Of a stretch of 64,000 nucleotides of DNA, positions 136-62,572 are shown piece after piece. Numbering within the stretch: the first letter of the stretch is position 1; the number at the start of each line of letters is the position of its first letter. The position numbers and the translations under genes are program-made. This DNA is from Branchiostoma floridae. Lineage: Eukaryota > Chordata > Leptocardii > Amphioxiformes > Branchiostomatidae. The stretch lies in assembly GCF_000003815.2 (NCBI RefSeq), contig NC_049995.1, positions 6,156,475-6,220,474 of the forward strand, given 5' to 3'. Under the pieces are notes generated by a model that was not told the origin of the DNA, did no database searches, and was given only the letters and a program-made list of their open reading frames with translations.

Positions 136-430
136 TAATTGAATGAATTTGCAGGACCATGGGATATGAAACTATTCTTTCGTATATTCTTTCCTAGTGT
201 CTTACCTTGACTTGAATCTAATCTAATGTGATCCCCAAAGTTTACCTCCACATATGACATATCAATCTTTTTTCTATTCATCTTGGTTGTGTTAAAATTT
301 GTCCAGCCATCATATTGTTCAACTTTCTTGAGAACCATGTGTAAGACACCTTTAGTGAGCGATTAAGTCAAGTATGTCAATGCAAATCTTGATCATAACT
401 TCATATGTACGTTAACTTTACTTTTTCTAG

Positions 431-3400
431 TCGCCTTCCAGCCGTTTGAGGGGTACGGGTTCCCCAAATTCACCTTTATCGACGGTGGACTGGCGGCCAA
501 CTATCCAATCTGGGCATTTGACGGTATGTCTAATTATGATGCAAAAAATGCGGTGACATTGGTTTTAATTAGCTTCTTGCTATAGGTTTCACTTCTAGGT
601 TTCGCTCCTTGCTATAGGTTTCCCTGCTAAATTATTTTTTTAGCGTAGACCCCATATCTTATCCACAGGATGATCGGTATGCATCCGCCAGGCAATGTGT
701 ATCAACGAGAAAAGTCTGCATTAGACTAAATTAGAAAATGTTCTACATAACAGAAGGAATCGATGGAATTACAGACCATTTTGTGAGCAAATTATGCTGC
801 TTTGGAGAATAAATCTTGTTTGTGGCGCAAGATTGTATGTTTCATGTTTGACTTCCTGTTAGGGTGGTACCTGTCCATGGACGAAGCAGACACCTTCAAG
901 CAAAGACTGGCGTCGGTTCAACAACGTAATGAGGAAAATAAGGAAAAGATTCGTAGGATGTTCGAACCGCAATACAGGAGGAAGGAGCGTTTCAACACAA
1001 GGAATGACAAGACTCTGGGAATTGTATTGGTAAGCTTCTGGCACAGATTAACTGTAGCTGTAAATAAGAATCAAAGTCACTCAAAGTTTCTTGCGACACA
1101 TGTTCATGCACAAATTAATTTTCGTAGGTATAAATATGCTACTCACTGGGTTAATCTATGATTGGTACAGAGCAAATTATAGCATTGCAGTCAATTTGTA
1201 CTTTGTAAGAATTCATGGCATTTCCTGCGCATTGAATTGCGGCTCTTTGGCGACCCCCTTCATCATAATGATTGTTGTTTTGGAGCCCAGCCGTCACCTT
1301 TGCATATTATTAAAATCTTAAATATTGTTGAAAACATTCATAATTTTCTTATCATCAAGTTCTCCAGAAAGGACCCTGAATTGTACCAGGAACGGTTTAA
1401 GAGTCGTTTAAGAAAATTGGAAGAAAAGGAACATCCGACGCCCAAGACCGAGCTATACGAGTAAGCTGTTTGCATTCTTTCCAAGCAGAAGTTTAGCGTA
1501 GACATAATTCTTGCTCTTTTCCCTCGCATTATTATTATTCGTATACGAGATTGTTTGACTGTGGCTGATCGGCCCATGAGAAATTTCCAATATGACTTCC
1601 AGTAATTTTCCTCAAATCAACTATGAAATTCATTAGGAGGTGTTTGCTAATTTACATTTTATATTCTGATATTAAAACGGTTCACTCCTGTGGAACTAAC
1701 TTTTGCACAGGGAGTACAAGAAGGAGATGACCAAGCAGGAAGAGGTACGAAAAACGACTGAACAACTTTTAAATGAACTAGTTGGCGATCAGATCAAAGG
1801 ACTAAAGAAATGTATTGAAGATGGCGACGAAGAAGGAGCGTGGAAGCACTTCGACAAGGTATTAGTAATAATCAATTATTCTCCAAGCAGAGGTTAGGCT
1901 CCGGCTGGTTTTGAACGTTTCTTTTTGCGCGCTGTCTACTTTGTTAGGTTTTCTTCATATCGCCGAGCCACTGGTAAATAAAACTTAACAAATTAGAAAG
2001 CCTCCCCCCAAACAATAGTCTAAACAATAGCCTAACCTGAGATTTGAGAGTTAAGGGTTAATGACACGCCTGTTGCTTGGTGTATACGTTGTCATAACGC
2101 CTGGTCCTTTGCTATAACCACCTCAAAATTTATTCGGTGGTTTTAGCAAAGGACCAGGCGTTATGACACCGTATACACCCAGGAACAGGCCGGGTATTAA
2201 CGTTTTTACGCCATACCTGTGACGCGAAAACGTTCGATACGGGTGTTCCGGACCGGGTGATAACTTTCCGTACGGCCCGGGCTTATCACACGGGCTCCAT
2301 TCGAATAAAACGAACTGTTTCGAGTGGGCCGAGTACGGCGCCATCGAAAGTTCGAATACCTGATTCGGACGTTGTAACATTACTGTTGCAACGCTTTTTT
2401 TTCGAGGGGAACAAATTTTTTCAACTTCTGGCGCATTTCGCATCAAAACAGTGGCTTTCTCAGGTGAGAAAGCCACGGCCTTCGTGCGATCCGACCCGCG
2501 GTCGAGCTGATACCTTGGGTGATACGGAATACACCGTGTTGTATTCTATATGTATCATACAGCCCATCCAAACTGACCCATATAACAGAGACAAATTCCT
2601 TGTATTTACTCAATAATTAAGGGCTGATACGAGACATAGGTTCGCCAGGCCTCCATCTGGGTGATTTGAAGTAAATCACCAACTCCCGACAGAAGGATTT
2701 GCACCAACGCACACCGCACCATCGCACGTGTTGGGGTTCTTTAACGTGCATGGGATGTGGCTCTCCCCATACATGGGACCTCCATTTAAAGTCCTATTCG
2801 AGGGACGGCCCTAGTTGAAGCTAAACTCGGCACAAAAAGTTTGGCATATCAACTTTTGTTAATCATATTTCTGATTTTTCTGCACTGATATCAGTGTATT
2901 ATATATCAATTGAAACCTTGTGTGATTCCCTTTCCTATGGTTTCAAACTCATCATGATTGTAAACTCATGAAACCAGCCCAGGGCCTGCTTACATGAGTG
3001 GGTCACCAAAAAAAAGTGCCCAAATTTCCCTTCTTGTGTTAAACACAATATCGTCTTACTTTTACTGGTGCGCGTGTCAGTGATTCATCCAATCCTTTTC
3101 TCGCGTCATGTTTGTTATACAGAACATACATGTTTGGTTTGGCTCATCTTAGCAGAATACATCTGCCCTTTTGGCAGTGGGGTGGCCAAATCCAAGCGTG
3201 GAGGCGGCAAGGAGAGCCGCACGCTGACAAGGCAAGGGTAACTGTCAGCTTTTGGAGGTGGAGGCAGCGTCATGGTGTGGGACGGTATAACTGCCATAGG
3301 ATAAAATAAGACTCGTCATCATTCAAGACAACCTCAATGTCGTGAGATATAGGGACAGTGCATCCTCCGTCTAGTCTCAATATCCCACCTCTTCAACATT

Positions 3401-6097
3401 GGACCAAATTCTATTCTGCAAGATTACAACACCCGGACGTCCACACAGAGCAAGGACCATTGCAGACTACCTCCAGAATGCGATGCTGGAGTAGTCTTAG
3501 GATGGAATAGCCTCCCTACGACTTATGGCTAGCACTCGATTGAACACCTCTCGGTTCAAATTCTTTGCTTTAGTAACAGTAGTTTTCATTAACATGTCCT
3601 GCTTATTCAACGTGTCATCATTCACAAGTCAATACAAACGGATAAAGAGGAGCTGAATGGAGTGTTTAACTTCAGTAGGGTAATTTCGGCACGTTTTGTT
3701 TTGTGACTCCCTGTATGCAAGCAGGCCTGGTGCTCGTTTCATGAATTCGCAAATCATAGAATACTCTACTCAGATGTACTAAAAATAAAGTTGGATGTTC
3801 TGTATACCAAAAGTTACGTGTAAAAAGGATTGATTGAATCAGTTGTCCCACTCATCAAAGCAGGCCCCGTGCTCGTTTCATGAGTTTGCAACCATAATGC
3901 GTTTGATTCCGTGGGAAACGGAATCACACAGGCTTTCAATTGATATATAATACATGGAAATCGATGTAGAAACATCAGAAATATGATCAACCAAAGTTAA
4001 TATGCCAAACTTTTTGTGCCGAGTTTAGCTTCAACTATGGCCGTCCCTTGGATAGGACGTTAAATGGAGGTCCCATGTATGGGGAGAGCCACACCCCATG
4101 CACGTTTTAAGAACCCCCACACGTGCGATGGTGCGGTGTGCGTTGTTGCAAATCCTTTTGTCGGAAGTTCGTGATTCAAATCACCCGGATGGAGGCCTGG
4201 CGAACCTATGTCTCGTATCAGCCACACGGATATGTACATCATTCACCCGGACGGGAGACCTGGCGCATCCCCGTCTTCTAATTAGCCAGCGAAAGGGTAT
4301 GTCACCCCGTACGGGGCGGTATAACCCCGTCGTGTGTAAACATGTGCGAACAAGTGTGATCACGTCGTCCGATGATGATGACACCTGCCCTTACGTCACT
4401 GTTTGCGATCTATCTCTTTGTACAAACGCGTCTTCAAACTGCCGCCATTTTGTGCATCCGCGGTATGGTGGCTCTCGTTCTTCCTACTCACAAATCATGG
4501 ACAATACTCTAAGAACGAGACCTATGCCCGTATTTTAGACCAATGGGAACCCTGGAAAAACCGGGTAGCTACGTAGTATATGGGATATTAATGACCTGGG
4601 TTATAGAGAAATTGGAGCCTTCTGATTTGTCCACGCCTGCTGGCTATATGGTAATAATTATTAATCAATTTCCTTCTTTGCGCTAGCAAGCTAGCTAGCT
4701 TGGTAATCATCGATATTAAGCTACCTGGTTCCGAAGAACACTTTGGAAAGTTTTTTGGTGTTTGATATGTCAACACGTGGAGAAAGGAGCGTTCGCTCCA
4801 ATGCTATATATGCACTAGTTACTAATATGATGACGAAATATCATAACATTCAAGTTTGGTTGGGTCTGACATTTCAACTATAATAATTCTTTAATTCAAG
4901 CTTGAGATTTGCCCAGTTTAGTGATGATCATCTGACCACTTCGGATTGCAACGGTCAAAACTTTGTGTACATGTCGCAATATCAGTAAATCATGTGGATG
5001 TTCCCTTTCTACTATTTTCATTTTAGATTTTCAGCCGGAAACACCTTGACATTCTGAACGTAAAGACACAGGAAGAGGCCATCGAGATGTTGTTGATGGA
5101 TGATGATCGCAAAGTAAGTTGTAATTTGTCACTTATTTGAATCTAATGTACCGTTGAACTAAACCAGTTATATGTTTAAAACAATGGCATATTATCTTAT
5201 TAAACTCTTGTAAATTGATATGTATCTACTTTTTCAGCTGACAACAGAAATGCTGAAGAAAATTGACGAGAACGTTGGTCCTCTGCAACTGGTCAAGGGC
5301 AGATTGAGGCATAGGCATGTGTCAAAACCAAGCGACTACTACAGCACCATGCTCGAGTTCGTCGGACACAACAGCGGAATTGAAGTATGCAGGTTTCACA
5401 TTTTTCAATAATTTAGGTCAATATAATGTTGAGCAACGTGCATGTTATTCTCCAAGAAGAGGTTATGGTCGGGGTGGTGGGAGGCAGCTGAAAAAAATCG
5501 CGTCCACCAGGCTATTGATCTGCTTAGAGAACACTGCGGGTGATGTTTCTTGTTTAAGTGCACTTCTTAGATTGTGATTAGATTAGATTTCTTTTTGGTG
5601 AAAGCTTAATATTTAGGGACAACTTAATTTAAGTATGGTATGTGCCGTGTTGTGTTTACATTGAAATTACGTTATTCTGTCCAGGAGGAGGATGTCGATA
5701 GGTCAATGGCCATCGACGTGGACTATGTGGGCACCATGGATTTTGACATGGCACCTAAAGATATGGAGTTCCTCATGAGGGTGAGATGATATTCTTTATT
5801 AGCAAGTCTTGTATGTTCTTTTGACATTTTTGTTTGGGTCTTTATTGTGTGATGAAATGTGGTATTACGGTTGCTCTCTACTTGTTTTTGATGCGCGCGC
5901 GTTTATGTATGTGTATCTGTTTGTGTATATTCAGTTACAAAATGTGGGATTTGACCGACTAGACGCATTGGCTTCTAATAAGAGAAATCGTTTAACTGAA
6001 TATTGACACATTATATATCGTTTTGCAGCAAGGAGCAGTGGCGACCGTTGCCTTTCTGGAGGAAAGGAAGAGGGAGAAAAAGGACGAGGAAAAGTAG
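431..6097 (+). CDS. Patatin-like phospholipase, left paralog (5'-partial at window edge)
   Basis: C-terminal two-thirds of a patatin-like lipid acyl hydrolase. Coding exons, all with AG/GT boundaries and matching phases: 431-523, 863-1029, 1360-1460, 1711-1858, 5027-5113, 5238-5384, 5685-5780, 6029-6097 (stop TAG). The first exon carries the IDGG motif, the aspartate of the patatin Ser-Asp dyad; the exons with the oxyanion loop and GxSxG serine must lie off the left edge. After the patatin core comes a charged, helical, Lys/Glu-rich C-terminal region that I do not recognise. Exon for exon it matches the minus-strand gene at 23220-48909, with small in-frame length differences: the WYLS exon is 18 nt longer and the IFSRK exon 9 nt shorter. 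The last exon ends in a Lys/Glu run, and its stop lies at the start of a GA-rich minisatellite, giving a C-terminus 15 residues shorter than the other copy. No frameshift or internal stop is visible, so it appears functional. Intron 1859-5026 is swollen by insertions. Confidence 0.85.
2057..2204. mobile_element. Near-perfect palindromic hairpin element
   Basis: Two arms of about 65 bp, centred near 2130, are reverse complements of one another with few mismatches. The inner part GCCTGGTCCTTTGCT is followed by a short AT loop and then AGCAAAGGACCAGGC. Outer words GTGTATAC and CCTGTT are also mirrored. A single half-like relic (ATATCGCCTGGTCCTCTGCT) is present in the right arm near 24490-24515. 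Probably a MITE or fold-back end. Confidence 0.75.
2629..4227. mobile_element. Fold-back element with inverted arms of about 365 bp
   Basis: Sequence 2629-2990 (starting GGCTGATACGAGACATAGG) is repeated in inverted orientation at 3860-4227 (ending CCTATGTCTCGTATCAGCC). The arms share the TTTGGCATA/AAAAAGTT and CACGTGCGATGGTGC regions. Between them lies a dead Tc1-like element. The whole insertion is missing from the matching intron of the right paralog. Confidence 0.82.
2991..3722 (+). pseudogene. Internally deleted Tc1/mariner-like transposase relic
   Basis: Frame-broken matches to Tc1-type transposase: WRRQGEPHADKARVT near 3210, FGGGGSVMVWDGI near 3252-3290 (family motif FGGGSVMVW), and GRPHRARTIADYLQNA near 3435-3480 (family motif NARPHTAR). 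These lie in different frames with stops. Short inverted ends near 2991-3040 (TGAGTGGGTCAC) and 3675-3722 (GTGACTCCCTGTATG) flank it. Too short for a full element and clearly inactive. Confidence 0.75.
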
Positions 6098-6525
6098 GAG
6101 GGTGAGATGTAGGGTGAGAAGTAGGATGACAAGAAATATGAGAACGAGGATGATGAGAAATATGAGGAGGATGAGAAGAAAGATGAGAAGGAGGGTGAGA
6201 TGTATGGTGAGAAGTAGGATGGGAAGAAAGATGAAAAGTAGGAGGAGAAGTACGATGAGAAGTAGGAAGAGATTTAGGATGAGAAGTAGGAAGCTTAAGA
6301 GACGTAGAATAGGACGGAATAATAAGAATTAGAATGAAAAGTAGGGTAAGAAGAAGGAAGAGATGTAGGGTGAGATGTAGGATAATGTCAAGTAAGATTA
6401 GAAGTAGAATGAGAATGAGTGATGAGAAGTATAAGAATCAGGATGAGAAGAATGATCAGACGTAGGATGAGAAGTAGAATGATAAGAAGAATAAGAAACA
6501 GGATGATAAGAAAGGCAGCATTTGA
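6098..6525 (+). repeat. GA-rich minisatellite in left patatin 3' UTR
   Basis: Degenerate 13-17-bp units of the type GATGAGAAGTAGGA / GGTGAGATGTAGGG start directly at the stop codon. Its purine-only strand is the sense strand. The related array is at 22630-23219 on the right arm. Confidence 0.9.
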
Positions 6526-8414
6526 AGCGAACATTGTGGATCAAATATACAGCATGCTTTAAAGTCTCGATAGCAGCTTGCTTTCTGACTTGTACTGGAA
6601 GACACGCAAGGGTGCCATATGCATTTGTTGTGATTATTTACTGAACTTGTACTATGCAACTTAAAAGAGTAATGACGAAGTAAAGAAAATGAATGTATAG
6701 ATTTCACTGTGACAATCCTTTAGGTGATATCTATTTGTTTTTCTTGATAGTTTATTATTTTAGAACGCTTTTGCCTCATAAAAGGGTCATGTATACTGCA
6801 TATGCCACTTCTTAAAACACTAATTAGGAGTATACACAGCACATATTTGTGAACAAAAAAAATGTGTCGCTTTTAAAACTCATGTAATATGTTGAATTAA
6901 GTTAGACTGTAACTTTGTGGTAGGATATGTTAAATTGATAAGATTAGATAACAGCAGTTAAATCGTAAATTTAATGTTACAGTAGTCTTCTTGTTTTGGC
7001 CTCGTTAGAAAATTGCGTGATCTATTATACGTTTATGTCTTCTAGAATTTAGAATTTTTGTCCGATTTCACAAAAAGAACTTTTTTTTTCTTCTTCGGAG
7101 ATGGTCAAAATGACGAGAAATTCCAAAAATGAGCAGATGTGTCGTGTTGTAGCGTTGATTGTACTTGTAGAAGTGAAGCTAGTGAGGTAGCCAAGACTGT
7201 AGAAGTGGAACTAGCTGGATATTTGTGAAGGTTTCACCGACATGGAAGCAATGGGGGTAGTTGTCAACTTGTTAAGTGATACCAGTCTACCACACTAGTG
7301 TCACTTTTACAAGGCCAGGGCACGTAATGAATGCAGGAATGAATGCCTTGTTGGCTGTGATACAATGTTTCGTTACTTCAATTTTGTTACAACGTTGATG
7401 GTGTCAATTTTGAAAATGTAGCCACCTTTTTTTTGCCCTATCTCAGTATTTTGTAGTCTGCAGGGGATGTCATGTTTACTTGATGTGGCCTTATATAGAA
7501 TAGAAGTTTGAAAGCATACATACGTGTAATTTGTGGTGGCTTAAAAAGAGCATGGATCAATATAAATTTTGTGACTTGTTAGACACAAATGCACACGATT
7601 CAACTTTGATGTGGGGCTCTTCATGTGTCCAATTTCCCCTGTTTTGCCATGTCGCGGGAATAAAGTAGCTGACAAGCTGTACGTGTACTGGTGGCGTGTA
7701 CTGGTGGCGTGTGTTCATTCTTTCGTACATTGGCACGAGTTAGTAGTGTATCATATGTTGATGCCGTATATTTATGTCTATGGAAGGAACACTAAGCTGT
7801 ATGTCACAGGGCTTCTGTTGGGGACTTTGAGTAATACTTTGTTCCATCTTCATATATTTTTCAGTATTCGAAAATATAGAATCTGTATAAAGTGTCAATA
7901 TAGAAAATACGAACCTTCTTGTAATGAGTTCATACTGGCAAATGCAAATTTCTTATTCATAGTTGAACAGAGACTACGGTATAACGATATATATATGCAT
8001 CTAACCTATGACCGTGGTATGAAGTTATATATTTTACATTCCTAGTTATATGAATTGCTACCACTATTCTTTGAGTGAATGGTACTCATTTTTACTTGAG
8101 TAAAGTGAGAAAAGTTGTGCGCTTAAGTACACTTAATTATTTTGATGACTATGTAATCTTTTTTACACTCTTATGGAGAAAAAATGCTTAGCGAATACCA
8201 TTTGCAAACAGTTTATGTAAAACTCTACTTTGCAAAGTCGTATGTTCAGAAACTTTAGGGTGATTATGCACTACATCAAATGTAAAAGAAAATGTTATTT
8301 TTTGGATCAGTAAACCCCCAAACACTTGAACGCCTGCCAGTATAATCTGTTCATTTTCCAATCGGTCCAAAATCTGGTCCAGTAAAGTTTTAGGCCCGTT
8401 TTCTTTCCGACCGT

Positions 8415-8514
8415 NNNNNNNNNNNNNNNNNNNNNNNNNNNNNNNNNNNNNNNNNNNNNNNNNNNNNNNNNNNNNNNNNNNNNNNNNNNNNNNNNNNNNN
8501 NNNNNNNNNNNNNN
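8415..8514. other. Assembly gap
   Basis: A run of exactly 100 N, so the size is likely a placeholder. It falls inside the inner part of the left duplication arm. Confidence 0.99.
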
Positions 8515-8640
8515 GAAACATGGGGTTACTTTAAAGTAAAAAATGAGAAAAAGATAATATTATTTCACAGTGGAATCAGCATTTACAATAAATAGACATT
8601 TATAAGAGTTCTGTTTCGCAACTCTGCAAGATACATGCCA

Positions 8641-9853
8641 CTATAAGACAGTAAAACTTGATTTTATTATTAAAATACAACGCAAAATGTTAACGTATGC
8701 AAGATAGCAAAACATTTGAAAAAAATCGTGAAACCTCATAACAGAACAGAGGAACGTTTGGATTTCCATGATATTTAGCATGCAGGTTTGTTTGGCTTTG
8801 TTTGAGATAATATACATAATGGAGTGCAGGTTATGCAAATTTGACTTAATTTGCATACTTAATGAGGAAAATCTACATTTCTAGTATTTTCCATTATACG
8901 ACTCAAATACGTATAACATATGTAATGTGTGGCAGGTGGAAAGTTATCAGACACCAATTATGCAAATAAATCATTAATTTTCATGATTAATGTCAAAGGG
9001 TCCTAATTCATCTAAGTACATATAGTAAATAATTGGATTGTCAACATTGTGACCTGTGTAACTTATTTAAAGTTGTACATAACCAAGCATAAATTATGCA
9101 GATGTTCAAGTCATTTGCATAATCAGAATATTTCATGCAGGTATGAGTAAGCAAAAAGGTGTTTAAAGGGAGCAAGCACTTTTTCTGTTTCCTATAATTA
9201 TAATGGTATGTGACCACAGCAGAACCAACCTCGACTTTTGTTCATCAGTGCATCTTGTTCGTGACCGGGTTTCCCAGGTTTTCCGGAAAAGTGCAGCCCG
9301 CTCTCTTGAACAGCCACAGCGTCTAATCTTTTCCAGTTCAGTGTCCTTGGTCTGTGTGTAAATATGTTAACTTGAACTATGAATATGCACAAGGACCAAT
9401 AAATGGACCAATCAGGAGAAAGATGACTCACAGTTTAGTTAATGTGATACTATGTTCTCAGTTTCGTATACTAGCATACCAGCAATTAGATATATTTGAC
9501 GTGAAATCTGTGCTAGGTGCCTATCTTCATTCCAGTAGCCCATGGGCCACACATTTTTGCAGGCAAAATGTATAACAGCAGGGAATAGTCCACTAGAAGT
9601 GGTGTGTGGTTAATTAAAACGCCCTTTTAAACGTGCTAAGAAAAAAATACAAGTTTAAGGAATCTTTTGAAAGTACGATCCAACCGGGGATTGAAGTCGT
9701 GTCATTCCGAATGTAGAGCGAGCTCCGCTGGGTATTTTGCTGTTGTTGTTTTTTTTGTCAGGGGTCCAATATCTTAATATTTCTGTTTATAAAGGGGATT
9801 GTCTATTTTGAGCAGGACTGGTGTAGGATGAACTATATAACACTTGGGAACCA
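8641..9853. other. AT-rich spacer of the inverted duplication
   Basis: No gene seen. Between the inner end of the left arm and the CACTA-like element. Contains TTTGCATAATTAATG-like words (8830-9150) of a dispersed family that recurs near 28020-28400 and 32200-32400. Confidence 0.6.
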
Positions 9854-10530
9854 CACTACAAAAAATTATTTTTCTTATTTTTCTTGTTTTCTTGTTTTTT
9901 CTTATGGAGAGAAAGAGTTTCTTGAATAAAGAAAGGTTGAGAAAAATCAAGAAACTTCCCATGAAACCTTTGTATGATAATTCCTACACGAAGATTTTCA
10001 TTCTTGTTTTTTCTTAACTGAAGAAAATACTTCCAGTATAATGCTCACTGACAAGAATGTTCAAGAAATTTAAGTAGAACTTTCTTTTCCAGTCTTTGCA
10101 CAAGATTTGCTTCTTGAATCATGATAAAGTGGAAGATATGGCAGAATCTGTCCTGCAGATTATTATTCTTGCCATGTACAAGTCTTTTCTTAAAGATTTG
10201 TTTTCATTAGAATAAAATTCTTGAACTTTCTTGTTGTCTTAATGTAGAATGTCTGAGAAACATAACTCTTGCTTTTCTTGCTATTATAAGAAAAAAAGAA
10301 AAGCAAGCAATTGCAAAAAAAGTTATAGCTAGCATTAAGTTCCCAAATGTTCTTGTTTTCCTTACCCATTAAGTTTAAGAAAGATAATTCTGTTTTTTTC
10401 TGGAAATAAGAAAGTTAGCTGTGCTAAGGATCATGGGAAATTACTCCCATCATCCTTTGCTGTTTCATTTGAATGTTACCGATAGTCTGAGTGGAAGCTG
10501 TTGCTCTCTAGCTATAATTTTTTGCCCTAA

Positions 10531-11739
10531 TCCTCAAACACCCGAGTGGGGTCCATTTGGACCCCATGCGTACATTTTGAAGTGCCATTTGAACATTTTT
10601 GATCTCAAGAAAAAATACTTCCGTGACTTCGTCCGTCAATATGACTTATACCTTCTCCTAAGTTTTCGCAAAGATTGGTACAATAATTGATAATCTTTAT
10701 TGATAATCTTTATTGCATATTCATGCCCGAGGGCTAAATGCACAAAGGGACCACATATGGTCTTATGGATGCAGAGGAAAAAAAGAAACTAGACTACTAC
10801 AATGGTTTTAAACTAGTCTAAATGGAAAAGGAACTAAGACACTATGTGTTACAATCTCTAATGGCTGCTTCTAACATGTTCTTCTCTCTTTTTGAAACAC
10901 ATGGAGACATATTTACATATTGTGTCGATAATGTGGAAATTATAAAGAAAGTTTGTGTTCAGTCCCTCTGGGGTCCAAACGGACCCCAGGAAAAATGTGC
11001 AGTTTTTAAAACAAACTTTGGAGGCTAACTCCTTAACCACTTACAGTATGACTACCAAACTTTCAGACAATAATAAGAATGTAAACCTTAATCATAACAA
11101 AAATTTCTGTGTCAAAAACATGTAATATGACAACATTATGACGTCATTTGCCTAATCAGGGCGGCCATCTTGGATTTAGACCAATGACGTCATCAAATTA
11201 GCATAAATTATAAATTTTAAGTCATGAAAATTACATTGAATTTCATAGAACTTAATTGTTGTCAGAAAACAGGTGTAGTTTACCAAGAAAACCTTGTTTA
11301 AATTGAAATTGTCAAATTTTGGCAAAAATTAGAATATGGTTGTCATGGCAACCCCCAAAAATGATAAACTTACTTTATTGACCAAAAACTTTTGCAAACA
11401 ATATTCTGTGATAAATTACTAAGTTTTGTAGCTTTAGCTCTAGCAGTTCATGAGTTATGCGACATAAATGTTGCTGAGGACCTCAAAATTCCCCTATCTG
11501 GTCGGAATAGGTTTAGTACAAAACGTGGTCCTTCTGAACTTTTGCATAAATTATGATAATGAGTTGGAATTAGCAACACCTTAACATCTCATAATCTTCC
11601 TCTTACATTGACGAAGCAATGTATATACAATGACCGCCGATAAGAAATGGTACCGAGATTTTATGAACAAAACATTTTGGGGTCCGTTTGGACCCCACTC
11701 GGTCATTTTAGTCGCAAAGAAAGGTCGGGTGCTTGAGGG
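10531..11739. mobile_element. piggyBac-like MITE nested in the CACTA-like element
   Basis: Inverted termini TCCTCAAACACCCGAG / CCCTCAAGCACCCGA flanked by CTAA (10527-10530) and TTAA (11740-11743), consistent with a mutated TTAA target site. Each end has an inner palindrome GGGGTCC(A/G)TTTGGACCCC; a third copy lies near 10970-10990. The right terminus is split by about 20 bp of extra sequence. No coding capacity. The superfamily call rests on the TTAA flank and CCCT start. Confidence 0.55.
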
Positions 11740-11948
11740 TTAAGGCCATTGGATCTTCCAATAAAAGGGAACAAGTATGGTGTGTTTAGTGATGACAATG
11801 TTCTGCATCATGTGGGACATTGTGAACAATGTGGCTAGCTTTTTAAAGTTCCAAAATGCTACCGAAGCCAAGGCCAGAGGCTGGACACCCCCCTCCCCCA
11901 TGCAGGTATGTTAGCCATCTTGGTTTGGAATATGACTTCTAAAGCTAC

Positions 11949-12048
11949 NNNNNNNNNNNNNNNNNNNNNNNNNNNNNNNNNNNNNNNNNNNNNNNNNNNN
12001 NNNNNNNNNNNNNNNNNNNNNNNNNNNNNNNNNNNNNNNNNNNNNNNN
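11949..12048. other. Assembly gap
   Basis: A run of exactly 100 N inside the CACTA-like element. Confidence 0.99.
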
Positions 12049-12150
12049 TGTTATGATAAGGCCGAACAGTAATTACAGAATATGAAAGTAAAGTAAATGA
12101 GTTTCTGCGTAATACTAAGAATTGACTATGATATTTGCAAGGAAGGAATG

Positions 12151-17900: not shown

Positions 17901-18282
17901 TGCCAAGGACTCCCTCAGAACGGAAACTTCCTCTCGGCTTTCATTTCCACTCGTCATGTGGGGTTCTGCCCCAGTCCTCAGTTCCACGCCCGAAGAAGAA
18001 TAACTTTCTAAGTTCGTCAGCGTTTCAGTAGCACTGCAACTTTCACGTGGCCGGATGCTGACCCAGCGCACAACCTTCTCTCTTTCACATCCGGGCTTGG
18101 GACACCGGCAACGGCGGAGTTGGATCCTCCATTTGGCGACTACCCAATTTCCACCCCCTCATTCGAGGTTACAGAGTAGGAACTTGCCACCTACCCCAGG
18201 ACAAGGAAATTGGTACATTCGGGCCCTCACACCACGACAAGGCTGGAGGATCGGGAGCCGATGTTTGGGCTCCCAGTGAGGG
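14964..18282 (-). mobile_element. Complete RTE-like LINE with 12-bp target-site duplication
   Basis: A 3,319-bp non-LTR retrotransposon flanked by a perfect 12-bp direct repeat, GTGTTTTATTTA, at 14952-14963 and 18283-18294. It has about 210 bp of 5' leader beginning CCCTCACTGGGAGCCC, a single intact ORF and almost no 3' UTR: the ORF stop TAG is the first repeat of a short TAGG-type tail. A single ORF, a short tandem 3' tail and the lack of an ORF1 fit the RTE group; clade assignment is tentative. The intact ORF and perfect flanks indicate a recent insertion. Confidence 0.88.
14973..18071 (-). CDS. LINE ORF: apurinic endonuclease plus reverse transcriptase
   Basis: An open frame of 1032 codons. 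The N-terminal part is an exonuclease-endonuclease-phosphatase domain: RIAAWNVRT with Asn69, the VSEMRW glutamate at residue 98, MGDFNAKVG, and a terminal SSDHHLM. The centre is a reverse transcriptase with the FIDFEKAFDS, TGVRQGCVISP and CDFADDIALL motifs (catalytic FADD). The C-terminus has the RRWKWLGHVLRM and GKRSRGRPLGTWRRT segments common to this LINE group. The endonuclease nicks target DNA and the reverse transcriptase primes on the nick. All key residues look intact, so the copy may be able to move. Start ATG at 18071 is the first in frame; a shorter start is possible. Confidence 0.93.
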   Translation of the reverse strand: MRWVSIRPRESCSATETLTNLESYSSSGVELRTGAEPHMTSGNESREEVSVLRESLATPQQLLRIAAWNVRTMYETGKTLQVVKEMERYRLSILGVSEMRWTDSGMITLNSGQTVCYSGKTDGQHQEGVGIIMDKEARKSLLGWEPVSPRIIRARFYSRYIKTTIIQCYAPTEQATEEDKDLFYSSLQDQIDQTPRHDILILMGDFNAKVGTDNVGYEACMGKEGVGERNDNGQRLVDVCMENGLVIGGTIFKHKNIHKLSWVSPDGRTSNQIDHICINRKWRKSLRDVKAIRGADASSDHHLMLCKLQLKLRKASKGKNDPLFDSGKLKDLAVKEQFTVELKNRFQVLEDIPVDDINARCEGIHKVFTDTSKAVLGYRKRERKEWLSETTWNLVQERKAAKQHMLNGSERQRAAAAKTYQAKNKEVKRSARRDKRVYMDSLATEAQQAAEKGDTRTVYKITKQLSGDLKNRAAAVKDKNGKVLMEGKDQLDRWAEHFRETLNRPPPESEATIEDMGFNIEMKRGPITLQEIVNAIKETKANRAPGEDRVTADMLKVDPVATARGLITLFNQVWYEETVPEAWKRGIIVKLPKKGDLSVCGNWRGINLLSVTGKIFCRVLLQRTRRSIDKILREEQAGFRSGRGCTDQIFVLRTIVEQSLEWNSSLYINFIDFEKAFDSIHHPSLWKILQAYGFPFKFINILKDMYADNQCCVRHDGQHSEWFHVKTGVRQGCVISPTLFLVVIDWVMRRATAGHPRGIVWGLTSRLEDCDFADDIALLSHAQRDIQEKTNNVDQQASSVGLKTHQDKTKILKVKSKSTVKTTIRGQDLEEVQDFKYLGSYISSDSNIEKEVSTRIGMAAQAFNKLRNIWKASTLKQKTKLRIYRSNVRSVLLYAAETWRTNKKIEQRIRGFESRCLRRILKIRWEQRVSNKEVAERTGIPNIVEEIKRRRWKWLGHVLRMHKNRHPYVALKWTPQGKRSRGRPLGTWRRTVEGEMKAARKTWHEVRWMAQDRKDWKKFVSALCSTKGSEED

Positions 18283-18314
18283 GTGTTTTATTTAGAGAGT
18301 AGACAAAACTCATG

Positions 18315-18450
18315 TACACTATAAGCTGGTTAAACTCTCTTCCACTCAAAGATTTGCAGAAGCCGCCAGAGATAAAAGAGTCCGTTACAAGTTGGTAAAT
18401 GAGGTGTAAGGGAAGGGGTAAGAGAGAAAGGTTGACAGACAACTTTAAAT
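18315..18450. repeat. Dispersed repeat, second copy at 58385-58540
   Basis: Shares AAGCTGGTT, CAGAAGCC-like and GTAAATGAGGTGTAA, then AAGGGGTAAGA and TTGACAGACAACT, with 58385-58540 in the same orientation. Part of the 4.8-kb right-arm-specific DNA next to the LINE. Confidence 0.6.
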
Positions 18451-18796
18451 TAATAAATTTAAAACAATTTAAGTTAATAAATGTAGCACTTGACCTATGT
18501 ATAAAGTAGAATGTCGGAATACCAAGGATTTCTTCCAGAATGATCAATTCTTATTTGAACGAAGAAAACATTACAACCAATCACTACATTAACAAACTTT
18601 ATAAGACATGCTGTTTTGGTCATGCCTTAACTATAAAAATGAAACGAAAGTTTGCAGTGGTTTGATTTTAATGGTATTATAAGGTATTGACATTAACGTC
18701 AGCATATTTAAAGTTTTTACAAAAGGCGTAAGTTATCTTAATAGCACGCGGATAACGCCAGGAGAAACATTTGCTCATTTGCGCAATCTCCCTCTA

Positions 18797-18874
18797 ACAC
18801 ACACACACACGCACACGTACACTCACACACACACACACATACACACACACACACACCTACACACACTCTCACAC
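18797..18874. repeat. (CA)n microsatellite
   Basis: About 78 bp of CA dinucleotides with minor interruptions (GCACACGTAC, CACATACAC, CACCTACAC). Confidence 0.95.
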
Positions 18875-20902
18875 ACTTCTAAGAAATCCACACTTTCTTC
18901 TTCATTATCTGCCTATCACCAGAGTGTTTTGGTGTTTCAGTTAAGTCAAAGGAATGTATGCGTAGGAGTAAGTTACTATGTACGTTTTCACCATCACATT
19001 TCAAGCAAGTCCATCTCCATCTACAGTTTCAACACCACAGACTATTGGAAGCCGATTGTGTGTATTACAGTAGTTTTAGAACCTATGTTTTGGGCTAATG
19101 TTAGAGTCAAAGATAATGTAATATCATAGCATATAGTGATTTTTCCATATAACAACTTATTTCCCTATCTTTTCGATAGCTGTAATGCAAACTTTTATTT
19201 GAGTCATGGACAGCGAAGTCTCTAAGTTTTGTTTCAGAATGGGGAAGGAGGGTGCCTGTAAAATGACATTTCTTTTACATCTGAAGTTTCCGAACATATG
19301 ACATGACATAAAACTTTTTATTTTATTTTTGAATGCCTTTGCAAAAAAAGAAAAGTTTCACACAACAATTTGCAGACAATATTCACTAAGCATTCTTTTT
19401 CGCTAAGTTTAAACAAGATTACATGGTAATTAAAAATCATTAAGTCAAGTTCACAACTTTCCTCACTTCACTCAAGTGAACATGAGTACCCTTCAATCGG
19501 ACTCCAGGGTGGATAGTAACGTATCAGTCACTACTGGAGATCCTAATTAAAACCAAAACCATAATATATATTGACGTTTTGAAACAGGCCTAGGGTTGAA
19601 CCAAGAATTTTTCCAACTATAATGGTATGGGAATAGTGTGTTAAATTGTTATTATGTCAACATATGTTATTATACAGACGTAATCAGAAATTTACATTTG
19701 CCAGTATGACTCATTATAACAACGTTTGTATTTTCTATGTTGACACTTTATATAAATTCTATTTCTTAATTTAGTGATTTAGAATAAATATATGAAGATG
19801 GACCAACGTATTACTCAAAGTCTCCACAGATGCCCTGTGACATATAGCATATACAAATATACGGCATCAACATATGATGTATTGTGAGCTACTAACTCGT
19901 GCCATTGTGCAAAAGAATGAATACACGCCGCCAGTACAGCTTGTCAGCTACTTTATTCCCACTACATGGCAGAACAGAGGAAATAGAACACATGAAGAGG
20001 TCCACATTAAAGTGGAATCGAGTCCATTTTTCTATGTCTAACAAGTCACAAAATATATACTACTCTTTTTAAGCCACCATAAAATACACGCATGTGTGCT
20101 GTCAACCATTTCCTTCTATGTAAGGCCACATCAAGTAAATATTATGGATGAAATCCTCTGCAGACTGCAAAAATACTGAAATTGGGCGAAAAACAAGATG
20201 GCTACATTTTCAAAATTAACACCTTAAACGTTGTAACAACATTGATGTGACAAAAATTTTGTATCACAGCCAACAAGGCATTCATTCCTGTATTCATTAC
20301 GTGCCCTGGCCTTGTAAAGGTGACACTAGAATGGTAAACTGGTATCACTTAACAAGTTGACAACTACCCCCATTACTTCCATGTTTGTGAAACCTTCACA
20401 AATATCCAGCTAGTTTCACTTCTACAGTCTTGGCTACCTCACTAGCTTCACTTGTACAAGTACAATGAAGGCTACAACACGACGCATCTGCTCAATTTTG
20501 GAATTTCTCGTCATGTTGACCATCTCCAAAGAAGAAAAAATGTTGTTGTTTTTTTAAATTGGACAAAAATTAATGATCGTGCTGATATCGTCCACAAAAT
20601 TTACTTACTATGTGCCCTATATAAACATGACATAATATGATATATCTACCAAATTATCTTTCACCTAATACCTATCATTTTAGAGGACATAAACGCATAA
20701 TAGATCACGCGATTTTCTAACGAGGCCAAAACAAGAAAACTATCGCAACGTTAAATATACGATTTAACTGTTATATAATCTTATAAATTTATCATATCTT
20801 ACCACCAACGCTACAGTCTAACTTATTTCTACATATTACATACGTTTCAAAGGCGATACAAATTTTGGTTCACAAACATGTGCTATGTATACTTCTAACT
20901 AG

Positions 20903-22363
20903 AGTTCGGGGACCTCATACCTCCATGAAATATTTATTGCTTTTTTGTGGATGGTATGTATGTTTATAGTCGATTGTATTTGAGAGTAATGGTTATAAAT
21001 GTTATGGGAAAGTAGTGGTCTATTTATTTAATGACACAGAGGATGTCCATCTGATTAGTAATTATTAGAATGTGACACTTAATTGTGTAATGTGCGTTTA
21101 AGAGGTCGACGGCATATGGTAGCGTGGTGTTCCTTAAGCTTGATGTTTGGCATTTAAACTGTCTAAGGTTGTCAGCATTATTGAGGTTCGACTATGTGCC
21201 TTAGAGCGGTGTGGTGGGAGGAAGTTGGGAAACTCAGAAAGAAGAAGGGATGTGGTCAACTTTAGTCAGATGGTGATTTGATTTTACACCAATATGTCAT
21301 AACATCAGCTGTTCACACGGTACAAAAATGAGATGCACACTTTTCTCTGATAGCCCTACATCAACTGTAAGATGAATACTTGGCGCCAACCCCGTCTGCT
21401 AAAAAACAAGTACCATTGGCTACGAAAGAGACAACTAACAACTGTCCCTTATCGTAACGAAATCAGAACATCTGTATCGCCCATAAAACTTCTGACACCC
21501 AACCCATCTAAGATGAGAGGACCTAATGGCATTTTAATCACCATGTCACTCAAATCAGCAGTACAGTATGTGAGACATCCATACCTGTTAAGCATTACCG
21601 TTAAATGTACCTCAACTTCTTACAATTATACTTACACTTCACATCTCCATGATATCCTAAGCAGACATAAATAAAACTAATTATCATATTCAAAAAACTC
21701 GGGGTTCCCCAAACAGCTGTCATACAAATCACCTCACTATCTGCTTGGAGCTAAGCCCATTAACAAAACTTAAAGCACGATGCCTGTTCCAATATATCAC
21801 AGATATAGGGGGGATTTCTGATATTGTTACATCGATTATAACGACAGATACGGCGCCCAAAATTACATCGATTCGAGCTTTCATCACAGCCCACCAACAC
21901 AACAAGTATGAAACCAATCCATCCAGCCGTTCTTGAGTAATCTTGTACACAGACAGAGACACATAACAGAACATATAACCTCCATGACATTTCATGGAGG
22001 TAACTACTGTGCCAACTGTTACAAATATTTCAAACAGTCCTAAGCAGACATAAATAAAACTACTGGGGGTTCCCCAAACAGCTGTCACCTCACTATCTGC
22101 TTGCAGCTAAGCCCATTAACAAACACATACAGCACGATGCCTGTACCAATATATCTCAAATATAGGGGTGATTTGTGATATTATTACATCGATTATAACG
22201 ACAGATACGGCTCCCAAGATCTTATCGATTCGAGCTTTCATCACACCCCCACCAACACAACAAGTATGAAACCAATCCATCCAGCCGTTCTTGAGTAATC
22301 ATCTACACAGACAGAGACACATAACAGAAAATATAACCTCCATTCCATGACATTTCATGGAGG
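20903..22363. mobile_element. 1.46-kb inverted-repeat element with target duplication, absent from the left arm
   Basis: Bounded by TAACTAG (20896-20902) and TAATTAG (22364-22370), a 7-bp near-identical target duplication. The unoccupied site is preserved in the left arm as CTAATTA at 6820-6826. Ends carry ACCTCCATGAAA and its inverse TTTCATGGAGGT. The 3' part is internally duplicated: about 21700-22009 and 22060-22363 are copies. The related fragment at 1-135 is a third 3' end. No coding capacity recognised. Confidence 0.8.
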
Positions 22364-22629
22364 TAATTAGTGTTGTAAGAAGGGGCATATGCAGTATACA
22401 GGATCATGCTATTTGATATGAATAGATAACACGTAAAAGATTGTCACAGTGAAATCTACACTTTCATCTTCTGTACTTCCTTATCACTCTTTTAAGTTGC
22501 ATAGTACAAGTTCAGTAAATAATCACAAAAATGGCACCTTGCGCGTCTTCCTATGAAAGTTAGAAAGCCAGCTGCTATCAAGACTTTAAAGCATGCTGCA
22601 CAATTCATCCACATTGTTACTGCCTTTCT

Positions 22630-23219
22630 TATCAACCTCCTTCTCATTCTTCTTATTATTCTACTTCTCATCTACGTTTGATCGTTTTTCTCATCCTACA
22701 TATTATTCTTCTCAGCATTCCCTCTCATCCTATACTTCTCATATTATCCTACATCTCTTCCTCCTTCTCATCCTACATCTCACCCTACATCTCACCCTAC
22801 ATCTCACCCTACATCTCACCCTCCTTCTCACCCTTCTTCTAATCTTTCTTCTCATCCTCCTTCTCATCCTCCTTCTCATCCGACATCTTATCCTACTTCT
22901 CACCCTACATCTTACCTTACTCATATTTCTTCTCATCCTACTTTTCACCCAATATCTCATCCTACTTCTCACCCTCCTTCTCATCCTTCTTCTCATCCTC
23001 ATTCTCATTTTTCTTCTCACCGTTCATCTCATCCTGCATCTCATCGTCCTTCTCACCCTCCCCCCATCCCCCTTCTCATCTTTCTTCTCATCGTACATCT
23101 CTTCCTACTTCACATTCAACTTCTCATCCTTCCTTCTTATCCTATTTATCATTCTTAATTTCATCCGTTGTCTCATCCTTTTTATACTCCTCACCCTTCT
23201 TCTTATCCTACTTCTCAAC
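22630..23219 (-). repeat. GA-rich minisatellite in right patatin 3' UTR
   Basis: Same family as 6098-6525, read on the minus strand: units such as GATGAGAAGTAGGAT and GTGAGATGTAGG. On the plus strand it is a TC-rich tract of about 590 bp. Long basic or Leu/Ile-rich open frames here are repeat artefacts. Confidence 0.9.
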
Positions 23220-26200
23220 CTACATATCCACCTTTTCCTTCTCATCTTTCGTCTCATTTTTCATCTCAACCTTTTCCTCGTCCTTTTTCTCCTTCCTCTC
23301 CTCCAGGAAGGCAACGGTCGCTACTGCCCCTTGCTGCAAAACAATAGATAATGTGTCAATACTCAGTTAAAATATTTCTTATATTATAAGCCAATGCATC
23401 TAGTCGATCAAATCCCACATTTTGTAATTGAATATACCCAAACACATCATCAAGTACATCCACAAAAACATACACATAGATAAACGCGCGCGAATCAAAG
23501 AGCTAGTAGAGAGTTGCAGTAATGCCACATTTCTTCACACACAAATACCCAAACAAAAATGTAAAAAGAACATACAAGACTTTCTAATAAGGGACAGCAT
23601 CTCACCCTCATGAGGAAGTTCTTATCTTCAACTTCCATATCAAAATCCATGGTGCCCACATAGTCCACGTCTATGGCGATTGACCTAGAGATATCCTCCA
23701 CCTGGAGGATAACGTAATTTCAATGACAACACAACATGGTACATACTTAAGTTGCCCCCAAATATCAAGCTTTCACCAAGAATAAATTATCACAATCTAA
23801 GAAGTGCACTTTAACAACGAAGAAACATCACCCGCAGTGTTCTCTAAGCAGGTCAATAGTAGCTGTAGTGGCCGCGATTTTTTCCAGCTGCCTCCTACCA
23901 CCCCAACCATAACCTCTGCTTGGAGAAGAACAAGCACGTTGCTCACCAATGTACAGCATATTGACCTAAGATAGAAAATGTGAAACAATCATACTTCAAT
24001 TCCGCTGTTGTTTCCGACGAACTTGAGGATGGTGTCGAAGTAGTCGCGTGGTTCTGACACAAGCCTTGGCTTCAGGTATTTACCCTTGGCCAGTTGCAGA
24101 GGACCAACGTTGTCCTCTATTTTCTTCAGCATTTCTGTCGTCAGCTGAAAAAGTAGACGTTTAACATGATGAATATCAGTTTACAAGAAATTACTAAAAT
24201 AATATGCCATTGTTTTAAACATATAACTGGCTTTGTACAACGGTACATTAGATTCAAATAAGTGAGAAATTACAACTTACGTTGCCATCTTCATCCATTA
24301 ACAATCCATCCATCATCTCCATGGCCTCTTCCGGTGAACGTACGTTCACAATATCAAGGTTTTTCTCGGTGAAAATCTAAAATGAAAATAGTCAAAAGTG
24401 AACGGACTCGGTCGCTTCATTCGGTGGTTAGGAATAGACCATGAATTATGGCACCGTATATATATCTGTGGGCGGGTCATTAACCCTATAATATCGCCTG
24501 GTCCTCTGCTATAATCACCTCATAAAACCTCCAAAACTCTCAAATCTCAGGTTAAGCCCCGGCGAGAAGTGAATTTTTTAAAGACTTTTGAATAAGGGGA
24601 GGCTTTCTATTTTGTTACGTTTTATTTACCAGGGGCTCGGCGATATAAAGAAAATCTAACAAAGTAGACAGCCCGCATAGAGAAACGTTCAAAACCAGCC
24701 GGAGCCTAACCTCTGCTTTGAGAATAGTTGATTTTTACTAAGGCCATGTTGATTTGATTATTGGATGACATCCTCCGGGAACTCCAAAACTGATGCGAGC
24801 GAGCGAATAAAAAAAAAGTTTGGCCCCCCCAAAAAAAGTTGCTTTCAGTATGAAATCAAAGTGGCCAGGAAGGTTGAACATAGAACTAAACACACATAGT
24901 ATGGTATACCAACAGTTAGGTGTAGGGACTAGTACATCATACGGGTGCAAAACATTTTTTTCTTCTTGGACCAATCCGAAAAAAAACAGACCTTAAAAAA
25001 AACAACAGAGCAACAGGTTTCGCCAATTACAAAATGGACACACTATGTCGGCAGCCATTTGGGGTCTAACCAGGGGGCCAAGAAGACAACAAGAGCGAAG
25101 TCAAGTAGGGTTTATAGTCAATTGTACCAGGTTTCTACAGTCAAAGGTACAGAGACAGTTAGCCTTTATTACATGGACATGGGATTTTAGAATGCAGTGG
25201 GAGTCCAATAATCCACCAAACAGATTCCTTTGTAGCAGAACTGACCAATTACCATTGTTTTGAGTATTGCCAGTTCTCAAGTTTCCACAGACAATCAGGT
25301 CCAGGTTCATGTAAGGACCTGGAAATGATCCTCTGGACCTGAATTTTCTGTACTGGTACCTCCCCCAACCAACAATAGATTTTTTTTTCTTTCTGTCCTT
25401 TCAGATCTTATTCGTTGACTTTAGATTCATTTTGGCATTCTATGGTATTAGTTATCTGTTTTCTGATACTTTTTTTTCAATCTACGGAATATTTGTGCTC
25501 AGCTACAGCTGCTTTGCACAATTTATTGTGTGGTCGAAAACGTTTTTTTTTTGGAAATGGCCGAAAATTGGTGCGAGCGCGGATGTCATCCATATAATCA
25601 AATCAACGTGGCCTAATACCTGTGCCAAGTGCTCCCTCGCTCCTTCAACGTTGTCATCTTCAATACACTCGTATAGTCCTTTAATATGTTCGCCAACTAG
25701 TTTCTTTAACATTTGTTTTGCTCTTTCTCCTACGTCGTCCTGCTCGCTCATCTTCTTCTTGTACTTCCTGTCGAAAGTTAGTTCTGCTAGAGTGAACCAT
25801 TTCAAATGAGTGCTTCAGAATTGATATAAAAAGCGAATTAGCAAAAATCTTCTAATGAATATTATAGTTGATTTGAGGAAAATTACTGATCTTGGAAATT
25901 TCTCTTGGGCCGATCAGCCGCAGTCGAACAATCTCTTGCGAATGATGTGAGGGAAAAGTAGCAAAAACTATGTCAACTTCTTATCCTAGTTGAAAAGAAT
26001 ACAAACAGCTTACTTGTATAGCTCCGTCTGAGGTTGTTCTTTTTCAAAATCAGGTTGTGCCTTCACCAGCTTTCTTAAGCGCTCCTCAAACTGTTCCTGG
26101 TACAATTCAGGGTCCTTCCTGGAGAACTTGATATAATGAAGAAAATAGTCACCTATAAGGTAGTGCTTGTGTCACTTCAGGCTATTAATGTGGTTATCTG

Positions 26201-29200
26201 TTATTTTTGCAGTGCCCCTGTTGGGTGTCAACGATATCTTATTCCATTTTATTTGATTTTGATTTTTGATTTTTATGGTATGAAATGTTGAGGTATCGCT
26301 ATAAAAGGTGTGAAGCCGGTGACGGCTCGGCTCCAAAACAACAATCATTATGAGAAAGGGGATCGCCAAAGAGCCGCAATTCGTTGAACAAGAAATGCCC
26401 TAGATTCATAAAATTTACAATATTGATTGTATGATTTTTTTTGGGCACCCATTGTAGTTTAACCGAGTGAAAAGCATAAAGTGATATACCAACTAAATAG
26501 ATTATTGCATGAACAGGCGACGCAAGCAAAGTTGACTGACTTTGGTTTTCATTCTCTTACAGCAAGAGTTAATCTGTACCAGAATCTTACCATTAGAATG
26601 CCCAGAGTCTTGTCATTCCTGGTGTCGAAACGTTCCTTCTTCCTGTGTTCCGGGTGGAACATCCTAGAAATCTTGGCCTCATCTTGCATCGACAGCATTT
26701 TCTTAAAGGTGTGTTCTTCTTTGTCGGACAAGTACCATCCTAACATGAAGTCAAATATAAAACATTCAATCTTGCACCACAAACATAATATTTAATTGCC
26801 GAAGCAGCATAATTTGTAAATTTCTTTCTATTATGTAGAGCATTTTTCCTATCTTAGTCCAACGTAGACTTTTCTTGTTGAAAAACATTGCTTGAAAGAT
26901 GCATACCACTCGTCCTCTGAATGAGATACAGGGTCCACGCGAAGAAAAAAAAATTAGCAGTAAAACCTATAGCAAGAAACTAAACCAATGTCATCGCATG
27001 TTTACACTACAATTAAACTTACCATCAAATGCCCAGAGTGGATAGTTGGCCACCAGTCCACCGTCGATAAAGGTGAATTTGGGGAACCCGTACCCCTCAA
27101 ACGGCTGGAAAGCAACTTGAAAAAGCAAAGGAAACATACTTATGAAGTCATGATCAAGATTTGCACTGATATACTTGGCTTAAGTTGTGCTTCACACATG
27201 GTGCTCGAGAAAATTGAACATAAAGATGACTAATTTTGCGAAAACCAAGGTGAAGAGGAGACTATCGATGTCATATGTGGAGGTAAACTTTGGGCATGAC
27301 ATAAGATTAGATTAAAATCAATGTACGACTCTTCCTGTCTAGAGACTAATGTAAGACAGTAGGAAAGGAGACCGGGAAACGTACATTATACGATAGTAGA
27401 ATTCCATATTCCATGGTCCTGTGGATGCCTTCAAATTCTAGACATACAGTCGGAAATGTACATGCAGCTTTGTGAAGCAGGTTTAGTGGATAGACGATCT
27501 AACCTGGAATGGACATAGACATGCGCACTGCATCCCGAATCTTTATCATGGGCGTGGTTTTCACATGGAAATAAGCTTCACTGCCAAGGACCATGTTGTA
27601 AGCCACGATGCACAGCTCCTTCCCCGTCACACGGTGGAGCTAACACGTACGGAAAGGCCGATTGATTTGTAAAACTGCATTACATATTTCTTGTACGATG
27701 TAAATAAAAAATTCTAACGTGAAATTTTGCAGAGAACCGGCTGTATGCATTCACATAAAACATTGCAATAAATGTGCAATCATAAAAATTATCTCGAAGT
27801 ACTAGTTCTACTACCTACATACTTCATACTCGACCACGATGCTGCATACGCGTCATACTACCAAAATGGTTTGAATCTTTTCGAGGGAGGAATTTGTAAC
27901 AGTTTCCAATTGATTATGCATAGATGGTCGGTGATTTGCCTAATTTGTCTCGGCTGATCATCATCTCTATCCAAGAGGCACAAGTTCAAAGTAGAAAAAG
28001 TATTAAAGTCTTATCATAGCATTGAAGACCCTTTTAGTGATTCCTGATTGATTATGTAAATACTTAACTAATTTGCATGATTTATGTCTAATGATGTTCA
28101 CCTTCACTAAGCTTCATAATGTTGTAATCATTAAATTAGCATCATTTACCACAGTGGAATTACAATATTATTTGGCAAAGGTTAAAAGGGAAGACACTAA
28201 AAGGAAATGAACAGAGAAGAAAACAATAGCCCAACACAGCGATGCAAGGAGATTTTCTCAATCTGATTGATATGTTTTCATTTATACGGCTGTAGTGTCC
28301 TCAAAATCAGGTCTTACCGTGAAATGCAGGGATTTGTAAACTTTCATTAATTATGCAAATAAGCACCTGATCAACACAATTGCCATTTCAATATAAAGAT
28401 CATCACTTAAGGTATTTGCATACCAAATGTCTTGACGATCCTTCGACCCTTTCTGAGTTATTCTGTTTCTAAGTCTGCGACAAAGTTGGCCCCTACAGTT
28501 CAAAACTAGCTGCTAGTGGCCCAAACCTACACCACTGACTTCGAGCCTCAAGACCTATAAACCACTCAAAAATCACGAACCTGCATTTGCAGAAAATTTA
28601 ACATCCAACTTTGAAGCGCTGCTGCAGTACCGCAACACGCCGCAAGAAGGCCCATTATTGAACTTGACCTTCCTTTTTGCCACCCCTACCTATCCACCAA
28701 ATATCATGATGGAAATCCACCTACAACATCTTGAGTTATGTTGTCCACGGCCAAATTAACTAATCAACTCCTACTTTGTTCGTCTTTCTTAATTGAAATA
28801 TTAACAGACGTTTCACCTTTGAGCCCTCAGCTGAAGAACCGCCTATGTAATACTACACCACTACTGTTTGATTTGACACAGTTTTCCAGAATTGTGACCA
28901 GCAGCTGTGTCCTTGATATATGTCAATGTACTAAGCTCTATTCTTTACAAAGGGATCATTACCTTTACCTGAGCTGATTAATTAAGTAAATCAGGACCTG
29001 CCTTGTATGAAATACATCTTAATATGTAAACCATCACCTAAACTATCTATATTCCAAACACAGTAAAGATCCATTAACGTAGACTTTAGCTATTCTCCTC
29101 CAAAGTATCGAGCATAAATGTCCACTGAAGTTCTCAACAAGCCGCTAAGGGGACAAAACATAAACACTTACTCCCAGTTCCTAGAATATAATCCACTACT

Positions 29201-60930: not shown

Positions 60931-60939
60931 AACTACCTG

Positions 60940-62215: not shown

Positions 62216-62450
62216 ATGAAAGTCTTAAAAATTGTAACAAATAAATGAGTTTACGTCGTACATGTTAAGGATAGATGCTGTTTTGGGCGCTCTTGAGAGA
62301 AGATATCTGAACCTAAAACCCGATTACAACTTTATTTCCATATGTCTGGAGTTTAACATTAATCAAAGTAAAAATACTTTCAAGCTCATTGGAAAAATAG
62401 GCTTACTAGGTATTATTATACCGTCAACTACCGTCAAACATAAGTAAGTT

Positions 62451-62572
62451 NNNNNNNNNNNNNNNNNNNNNNNNNNNNNNNNNNNNNNNNNNNNNNNNNN
62501 NNNNNNNNNNNNNNNNNNNNNNNNNNNNNNNNNNNNNNNNNNNNNNNNNNNNNNNNNNNNNNNNNNNNNNNN
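62451..62572. other. Assembly gap
   Basis: 122 N; unlike the other two gaps it is not a round placeholder. It directly follows the satellite array. Confidence 0.99.

Follow-up and report, generated by a model that had tools for sequence, protein, structure and literature searches.

Tail-to-tail inverted duplications have been described in several gene families and chromosomal settings. Dlx genes form tail-to-tail duplicate pairs in vertebrates and in the annelid Capitella teleta, some of which are reported to carry mosaic gene conversion (PMC3199776). In Branchiostoma floridae, the VCBP2/5 cluster is reported to contain large inverted repeats that depend on the haplotype (PMC2632668), while the palindromes of mammalian sex chromosomes are described as keeping more than 99% identity between their arms by conversion (PMC8981503, PMC3723533). 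Here, we analyse a stretch of 64,000 nucleotides from B. floridae (the window; contig NC_049995.1, here C17:6156475-6220474, forward strand), in which a segment carrying a patatin-like phospholipase gene is present twice in opposite orientation, as arm A with gene A and arm B with gene B. Among the titles and opening lines of abstracts covered by a partial literature search, no account of this locus was found. Position p of the window is C17:6156474+p, and coordinates below 1 lie to its left.

The arms were traced in the window together with 30 kb of added flank on the left and 20 kb on the right. An earlier note on this DNA had claimed an anti-diagonal from about 150/27425 to 8640/13940, and self-comparison of the window places it at 139/27434 to 8636/13949. 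Arm A, with its gene on the + strand, and arm B, with its gene on the − strand, are collinear and inverted through exons, introns, a repeat insertion common to both and 3′ flank. The full matching chain takes in −6576 to 8636 of arm A (15.2 kb; 139..8636, +, inside the window) and 48400 to 13949 of arm B (34.5 kb; 13949..48400, −), of which the earlier view had reached 13949-27425 only. The estimate of some 8 kb present twice was therefore right about the duplication and too small about its size, as the chain continues past the window edge. Much of the excess length of arm B consists of private insertions, and this arm is swollen by transposons.

The inverted match is strongly strand-specific. 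Arm A has 22 matches in the reverse complement of 13900-49000, where the best collinear chain scores 5054 bits, against 3 matches and a best chain of 195 bits on the same strand. None of 20 first-order Markov shuffles of arm B produced a match to arm A, and the next 35 kb produced none on either strand; these controls together exclude chance as the source of the match between the arms. Ten of the 11 introns retain alignable sequence between A and B, the exception being intron 1. This collinear homology on opposite strands, with introns and flank included, is that of an inverted (tail-to-tail) segmental duplication, as the earlier note had proposed. Across 5858 aligned columns of the chain the arms are 84.5% identical, with many large insertions and deletions; their longest exact match is 58 bp and the identity of any 150-column window is at most 93.3%. 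Between the arms lies a central spacer (8637..13948), where one more match in order was found (37 bp, 9854-9890 to 13848-13812, 92%, E 7e-10), the remaining matches having E values of 0.029 or worse.

Patatin-like phospholipases are characterised by a glycine-rich loop and by the catalytic motifs GXSXG and DGG/A. Both copies hold GGGAKG in exon 1 and the motifs of the Ser-Asp dyad, GTSAG in exon 2 and FIDGG, with its DGG, in exon 5. Each gene is made of 12 corresponding exons in one open frame, of 552 residues in A and 572 in B, and the splice sites, which were placed by hand, are GT-AG at all 11 introns of both genes. Gene A (+) has exons 1-4 to the left of the window at −6557..−6318 (5′ end and start codon provisional), −2819..−2672, −908..−682 and −377..−242, and exons 5-12 inside it (431..6097) at 431-523, 863-1029, 1360-1460, 1711-1858, 5027-5113, 5238-5384, 5685-5780 and 6029-6097. 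Gene B spans 23220..48416 on the − strand, with exons 1-6 at 48416-48168 (first exon and start codon provisional), 47347-47200, 30030-29804, 27639-27504, 27115-27023 and 26739-26591, and exons 7-12 at 26126-26014, 25767-25620, 24376-24281, 24144-23995, 23701-23606 and 23333-23220. The claim of two convergent patatin-like genes around a central spacer is borne out by Pfam, where both proteins match Patatin (PF01734) over profile positions 1-190 of 191, well above the cut-off of 27.7 bits (A, 109.5 bits, E 3.1e-31; B, 114.7 bits, E 8e-33). The proteins share 361 of 536 aligned residues (67%), with poor alignment in exon 1 upstream of GGGAKG. Judged from their sequences, A and B may both be active in lipid hydrolysis, with specialisation already under way. 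Among the best relatives of the gene B protein in solved structures and NCBIfam are bacterial patatin-type effectors and anti-phage phospholipases, far under the NCBIfam cut-offs, a likeness that is probably one of shared fold only.

The earlier note suggested that divergence be measured separately in exons, introns and flanks. Doing so gives a synonymous divergence (dS) of 0.305 for all exons, and Kimura two-parameter distances of 0.164 for alignable intron sequence and 0.158 for the 3′ flank. Non-synonymous divergence (dN) is 0.206 over all exons, and exons 2-12 have a dS of 0.296 and a dN of 0.181. dN is low in the catalytic exons (exon 2, 0.095; exon 4, 0.060; exon 5, 0.028) and reaches 0.24-0.31 in exons 3, 6, 7 and 8, a pattern consistent with selection still acting on the active site and looser constraint elsewhere. 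In six short introns that could be aligned globally, divergence is 0.197. Positive selection was considered and dropped, as dN of exons 2-12 is not above intron divergence (1588 of 2000 bootstraps at or below). dN exceeds dS in exon 1 (0.402/0.357), exon 3 (0.314/0.206) and exon 8 (0.285/0.241), and the joint dN of exons 3, 6, 7 and 8, 0.282, is higher than the divergence of introns (at or below it in 5 of 2000 bootstraps). However, these exon groups were picked after inspection of the data, exon 1 aligns poorly and dN/dS for the whole genes is 0.68 (NG86) or 0.84 (YN00), so we claim only that constraint is uneven.

Set beside the systems described above, the two genes resemble the Dlx pairs in being two close paralogues linked tail to tail, with possible mosaic gene conversion (PMC3199776), and differ from them in that introns and 3′ flank can still be aligned, the product is a lipase-type enzyme and conversion has left at most a weak trace. 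They share with the VCBP2/5 cluster long inverted repeats in and beside a multigene family and transposon-like inserts in introns (PMC2632668); the VCBP2/5 repeats are reported to depend on the haplotype, and the present pair is strongly diverged. Inverted duplicated genes or repeats are also reported from the sex-chromosome palindromes of mammals (PMC8981503, PMC3723533) and willow (PMC7023750). However, arms that are 84.5% identical in aligned columns are different in kind from the mammalian palindromes, and neither the near-identical arms nor the long identical tracts of a gene-converting palindrome were found here. The earlier suggestion that the locus is a near-palindrome able to fold into hairpins was discarded on the same identity; arms this diverged and this far apart are unlikely to form hairpins.

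Other members of the family in this genome (431 contigs, 513,431,437 bases) place the pair in a wider context. An unrooted tree of 10 members joins A and B as sisters with an ultrafast-bootstrap support of 100, and it contains five neighbouring pairs, each of them sisters (support 92-100), three convergent and two direct. When A and B were compared with 15 other stretches (13 distinct loci of 3-10 kb each, many without the 3′ part of the gene), matches fell at exons and their edges and in dispersed or private repeats (7053-7494; in B, 42459-40954, 31929-31790 and 25598-25542), and not along shared introns or flank. A second convergent inverted pair of patatin-like sister genes lies at C9:22944500-22967499 (L020, L024, L025, L021) and is a separate pair from another branch of the family. 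Eight of the 12 exon queries matched both C9 genes, exon 6 matched only one and exons 1, 8 and 9 matched neither. As in A and B, the inverted homology of these convergent sisters spans exons, introns and 3′ flank, around a central spacer that measures 2.1 kb if bounded by the innermost match, of 43 bp, or 3.7 kb if bounded by the innermost long one. N gaps occur inside both C9 arms, but unlike in A/B the centre is free of them, with none between 22946812 and 22965078. The C9 pair, with the same layout and a gap-free centre, demonstrates that the convergent inverted arrangement does occur in this family.

Among 29 exon-4 matches sorted by eye there are nine neighbouring pairs whose members are no more than 100 kb apart, of which three are convergent, one divergent and five direct; a tenth, direct pair is added if a partial match at C3:21023908 is counted. 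Mixed orientation is thus usual among patatin-like genes here, and inverted birth is not rare. Separately, a stretch of contig C227 (3709-3876) gave the same scores for two exons as C19:8402391-8402558, part of the gene at 8.40 Mb of C19, and is perhaps a leftover haplotype of that gene.

We regard an ordinary, old tail-to-tail duplication of one patatin-like gene with its flanks, whose copies then diverged as ordinary duplicates, as very likely the correct explanation of the locus. A segment of about 15 kb with a single patatin-like phospholipase gene would have been copied tail to tail and in inverted orientation alongside the original, in the lineage that led to this genome. Break repair and replication-fork template switching between strands are a standard source of inverted duplicates, and either may have produced this one. 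Divergence, transposon gain and private insertions would have followed this probably neutral duplication, and the inverted arrangement itself probably has no present function. Two observations weigh against this account. Its weak point is the scaffold join at 11949-12048, a 100-N gap in the central spacer, which sets how A and B are oriented to each other. Furthermore, dS in exons 2-12 exceeds the divergence of the short introns (0.296 against 0.197, at or below it in 7 of 2000 bootstraps), an excess that does not fit a single clock.

The scaffold join leaves room for an assembly error, in which a direct tandem duplicate or an unlinked copy was flipped wrongly at the gap. In addition to the spacer gap, arm A is itself interrupted by 100 N at 8415..8514; PMC7269912, if it describes this assembly, reports that ARACHNE, HaploMerger2 and HiRise were used to build it; and the direct orientation of five of the nine neighbouring pairs would agree with such an origin. 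However, homology stays in order across the first gap (8391 to 8574 in A against 14360 to 14011 in B), the centre of the convergent C9 pair is free of N, and C19 has a third convergent pair, whose genes are 73 kb apart. We consider a wrong flip improbable. Still less credit is due to the possibility that one gene is represented twice, by divergent haplotypes misassembled as neighbouring arms, even though PMC7269912 describes the source of the assembly as a single diploid animal whose two haplotypes are highly divergent, and artefactual gene duplicates are reported on a scaffold of an earlier assembly at the VCBP locus (PMC2632668). The arms face opposite ways, each has large private insertions, their proteins are only 67% identical and no third near-identical copy turned up among the scored candidates. 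With a heterozygosity of a few per cent, the 11.9-17.3% of non-coding columns that differ look too many for alleles, and haplotype misassembly was rejected on divergence and orientation.

Tail-to-tail duplication with ordinary divergence has also to be weighed against exchange between the arms. If the arms had converted one another after the duplication, the inner (3′) half would look younger than the outer (5′) half, and with exons and minisatellite excluded non-coding differences do fall from 17.3% of 1269 outer columns to 11.9% of 2652 inner columns, with a change-point near 1233. The permutation p value ranges from 0/2000 for single sites to 0.013 for blocks of 100, and with a dispersed repeat removed the inner figure becomes 12.4% of 2211 columns (p 0.006-0.042). 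Mosaic conversion has also been published for a tail-to-tail Dlx pair (PMC3199776). However, the contrast is weak, was spotted post hoc and would equally result from local mutation rate or constraint, and exact matches no longer than 58 bp, with no 150-column window above 93.3%, give no sign of recent conversion. Of the gene conversion raised in the earlier note, a weak older trace is what may survive, and the two-speed non-coding divergence is a hint of old conversion and no more; conversion as the explanation of this contrast is possible but doubtful. The reading of a 91% identical block at 7053-7370 as a conserved or recently converted tract was set aside, this block being part of a copy of the dispersed repeat. 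A broader proposal holds both that tail-to-tail inverted duplication is a recurrent route of gene birth in this family, three of the five sister pairs in the tree being convergent, and that such partners for a while traded sequence close to the centre until they escaped conversion, so that inner and outer halves diverged at two speeds; this combination we think unlikely.

The earlier note also raised the possibility that convergent transcription yields antisense RNA pairing and regulation between the paralogues. Convergent orientation alone speaks for it. There are 3 candidate poly(A) signals in the flank of A and 15 in that of B. The aligned candidates, AATAAA at 7659..7664 (+) in A and 19957-19952 in B, are 12.3 kb apart, and even the innermost ones (A 8669, B 13998) are separated by 5.3 kb; with signals so far apart the transcripts are not expected to overlap. 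Pairing would require some 12 kb of read-through, from a candidate end near 7.7 kb to one near 19.9 kb, across a retrotransposon open reading frame and the two gaps. The anatomy gives no support to antisense pairing, which was rejected and appears highly improbable.

The repeats in the arms record insertions both before and after the duplication. A copy of a dispersed repeat of about 440 bp lies in the predicted 3′ untranslated region of gene A (7053..7494, +), with its counterpart at the same place in B (~20571-20130), which makes this insertion older than the duplication. Of 2610 first-look candidates for this repeat across the genome 40 were scored, and the scored copies other than B were 69-79% identical. 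The A and B copies differ at 40 of 441 columns, fewer than in most of the arms, and their being a dispersed repeat does not explain this low divergence. A 12-bp minisatellite directly past the stop codon of gene A (6099..6515, +) has its counterpart at ~22746-23278 in B; its windows are the lowest in the arms, with 69-74% identity, and here the open frame of gene B extends 16 residues beyond the last residue of A.

Among the private insertions, the 3′ flank of B alone carries an open reading frame of the long interspersed nuclear element (LINE) type (14973..18158, −), with endonuclease and reverse transcriptase, in a region where 62 bp separate 8231 from 8293 in A and B jumps from 19347 to 14447. 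The frame is open over 1061 aa, and the insertion is perhaps rather young. Intron 2 of gene B (30031..47199, −) is 17.2 kb long, against 1.8 kb in A, and includes a MULE/SWIM-like open reading frame of 1054 aa (34289-37453, +) that scores under the Pfam cut-offs, together with minisatellites at 33382-34114 (61-bp unit, before that frame) and 34453-34978 (33-bp unit, coding). Intron 8 of gene A, for its part, contains a private fold-back element (2622-4223). Rfam at gathering scores gave no match within the window. At the far right, 59131-64000 and a further ~8-10 kb past the window edge hold repeated blocks of ~0.6-3 kb that are 94-99% identical, with ~80-bp minisatellites, and these may represent either recent tandem duplication or merged haplotypes.

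Taken alone, the A/B pair leaves current views of patatin enzymes and genome structure as they are, and it offers a readable case of gene-family growth by inverted copying. Together with the C9 pair it provides two cases of one layout, with introns and flank still alignable, in one family and one genome. The two pairs allow us to ask whether inverted partners exchange sequence before they diverge.

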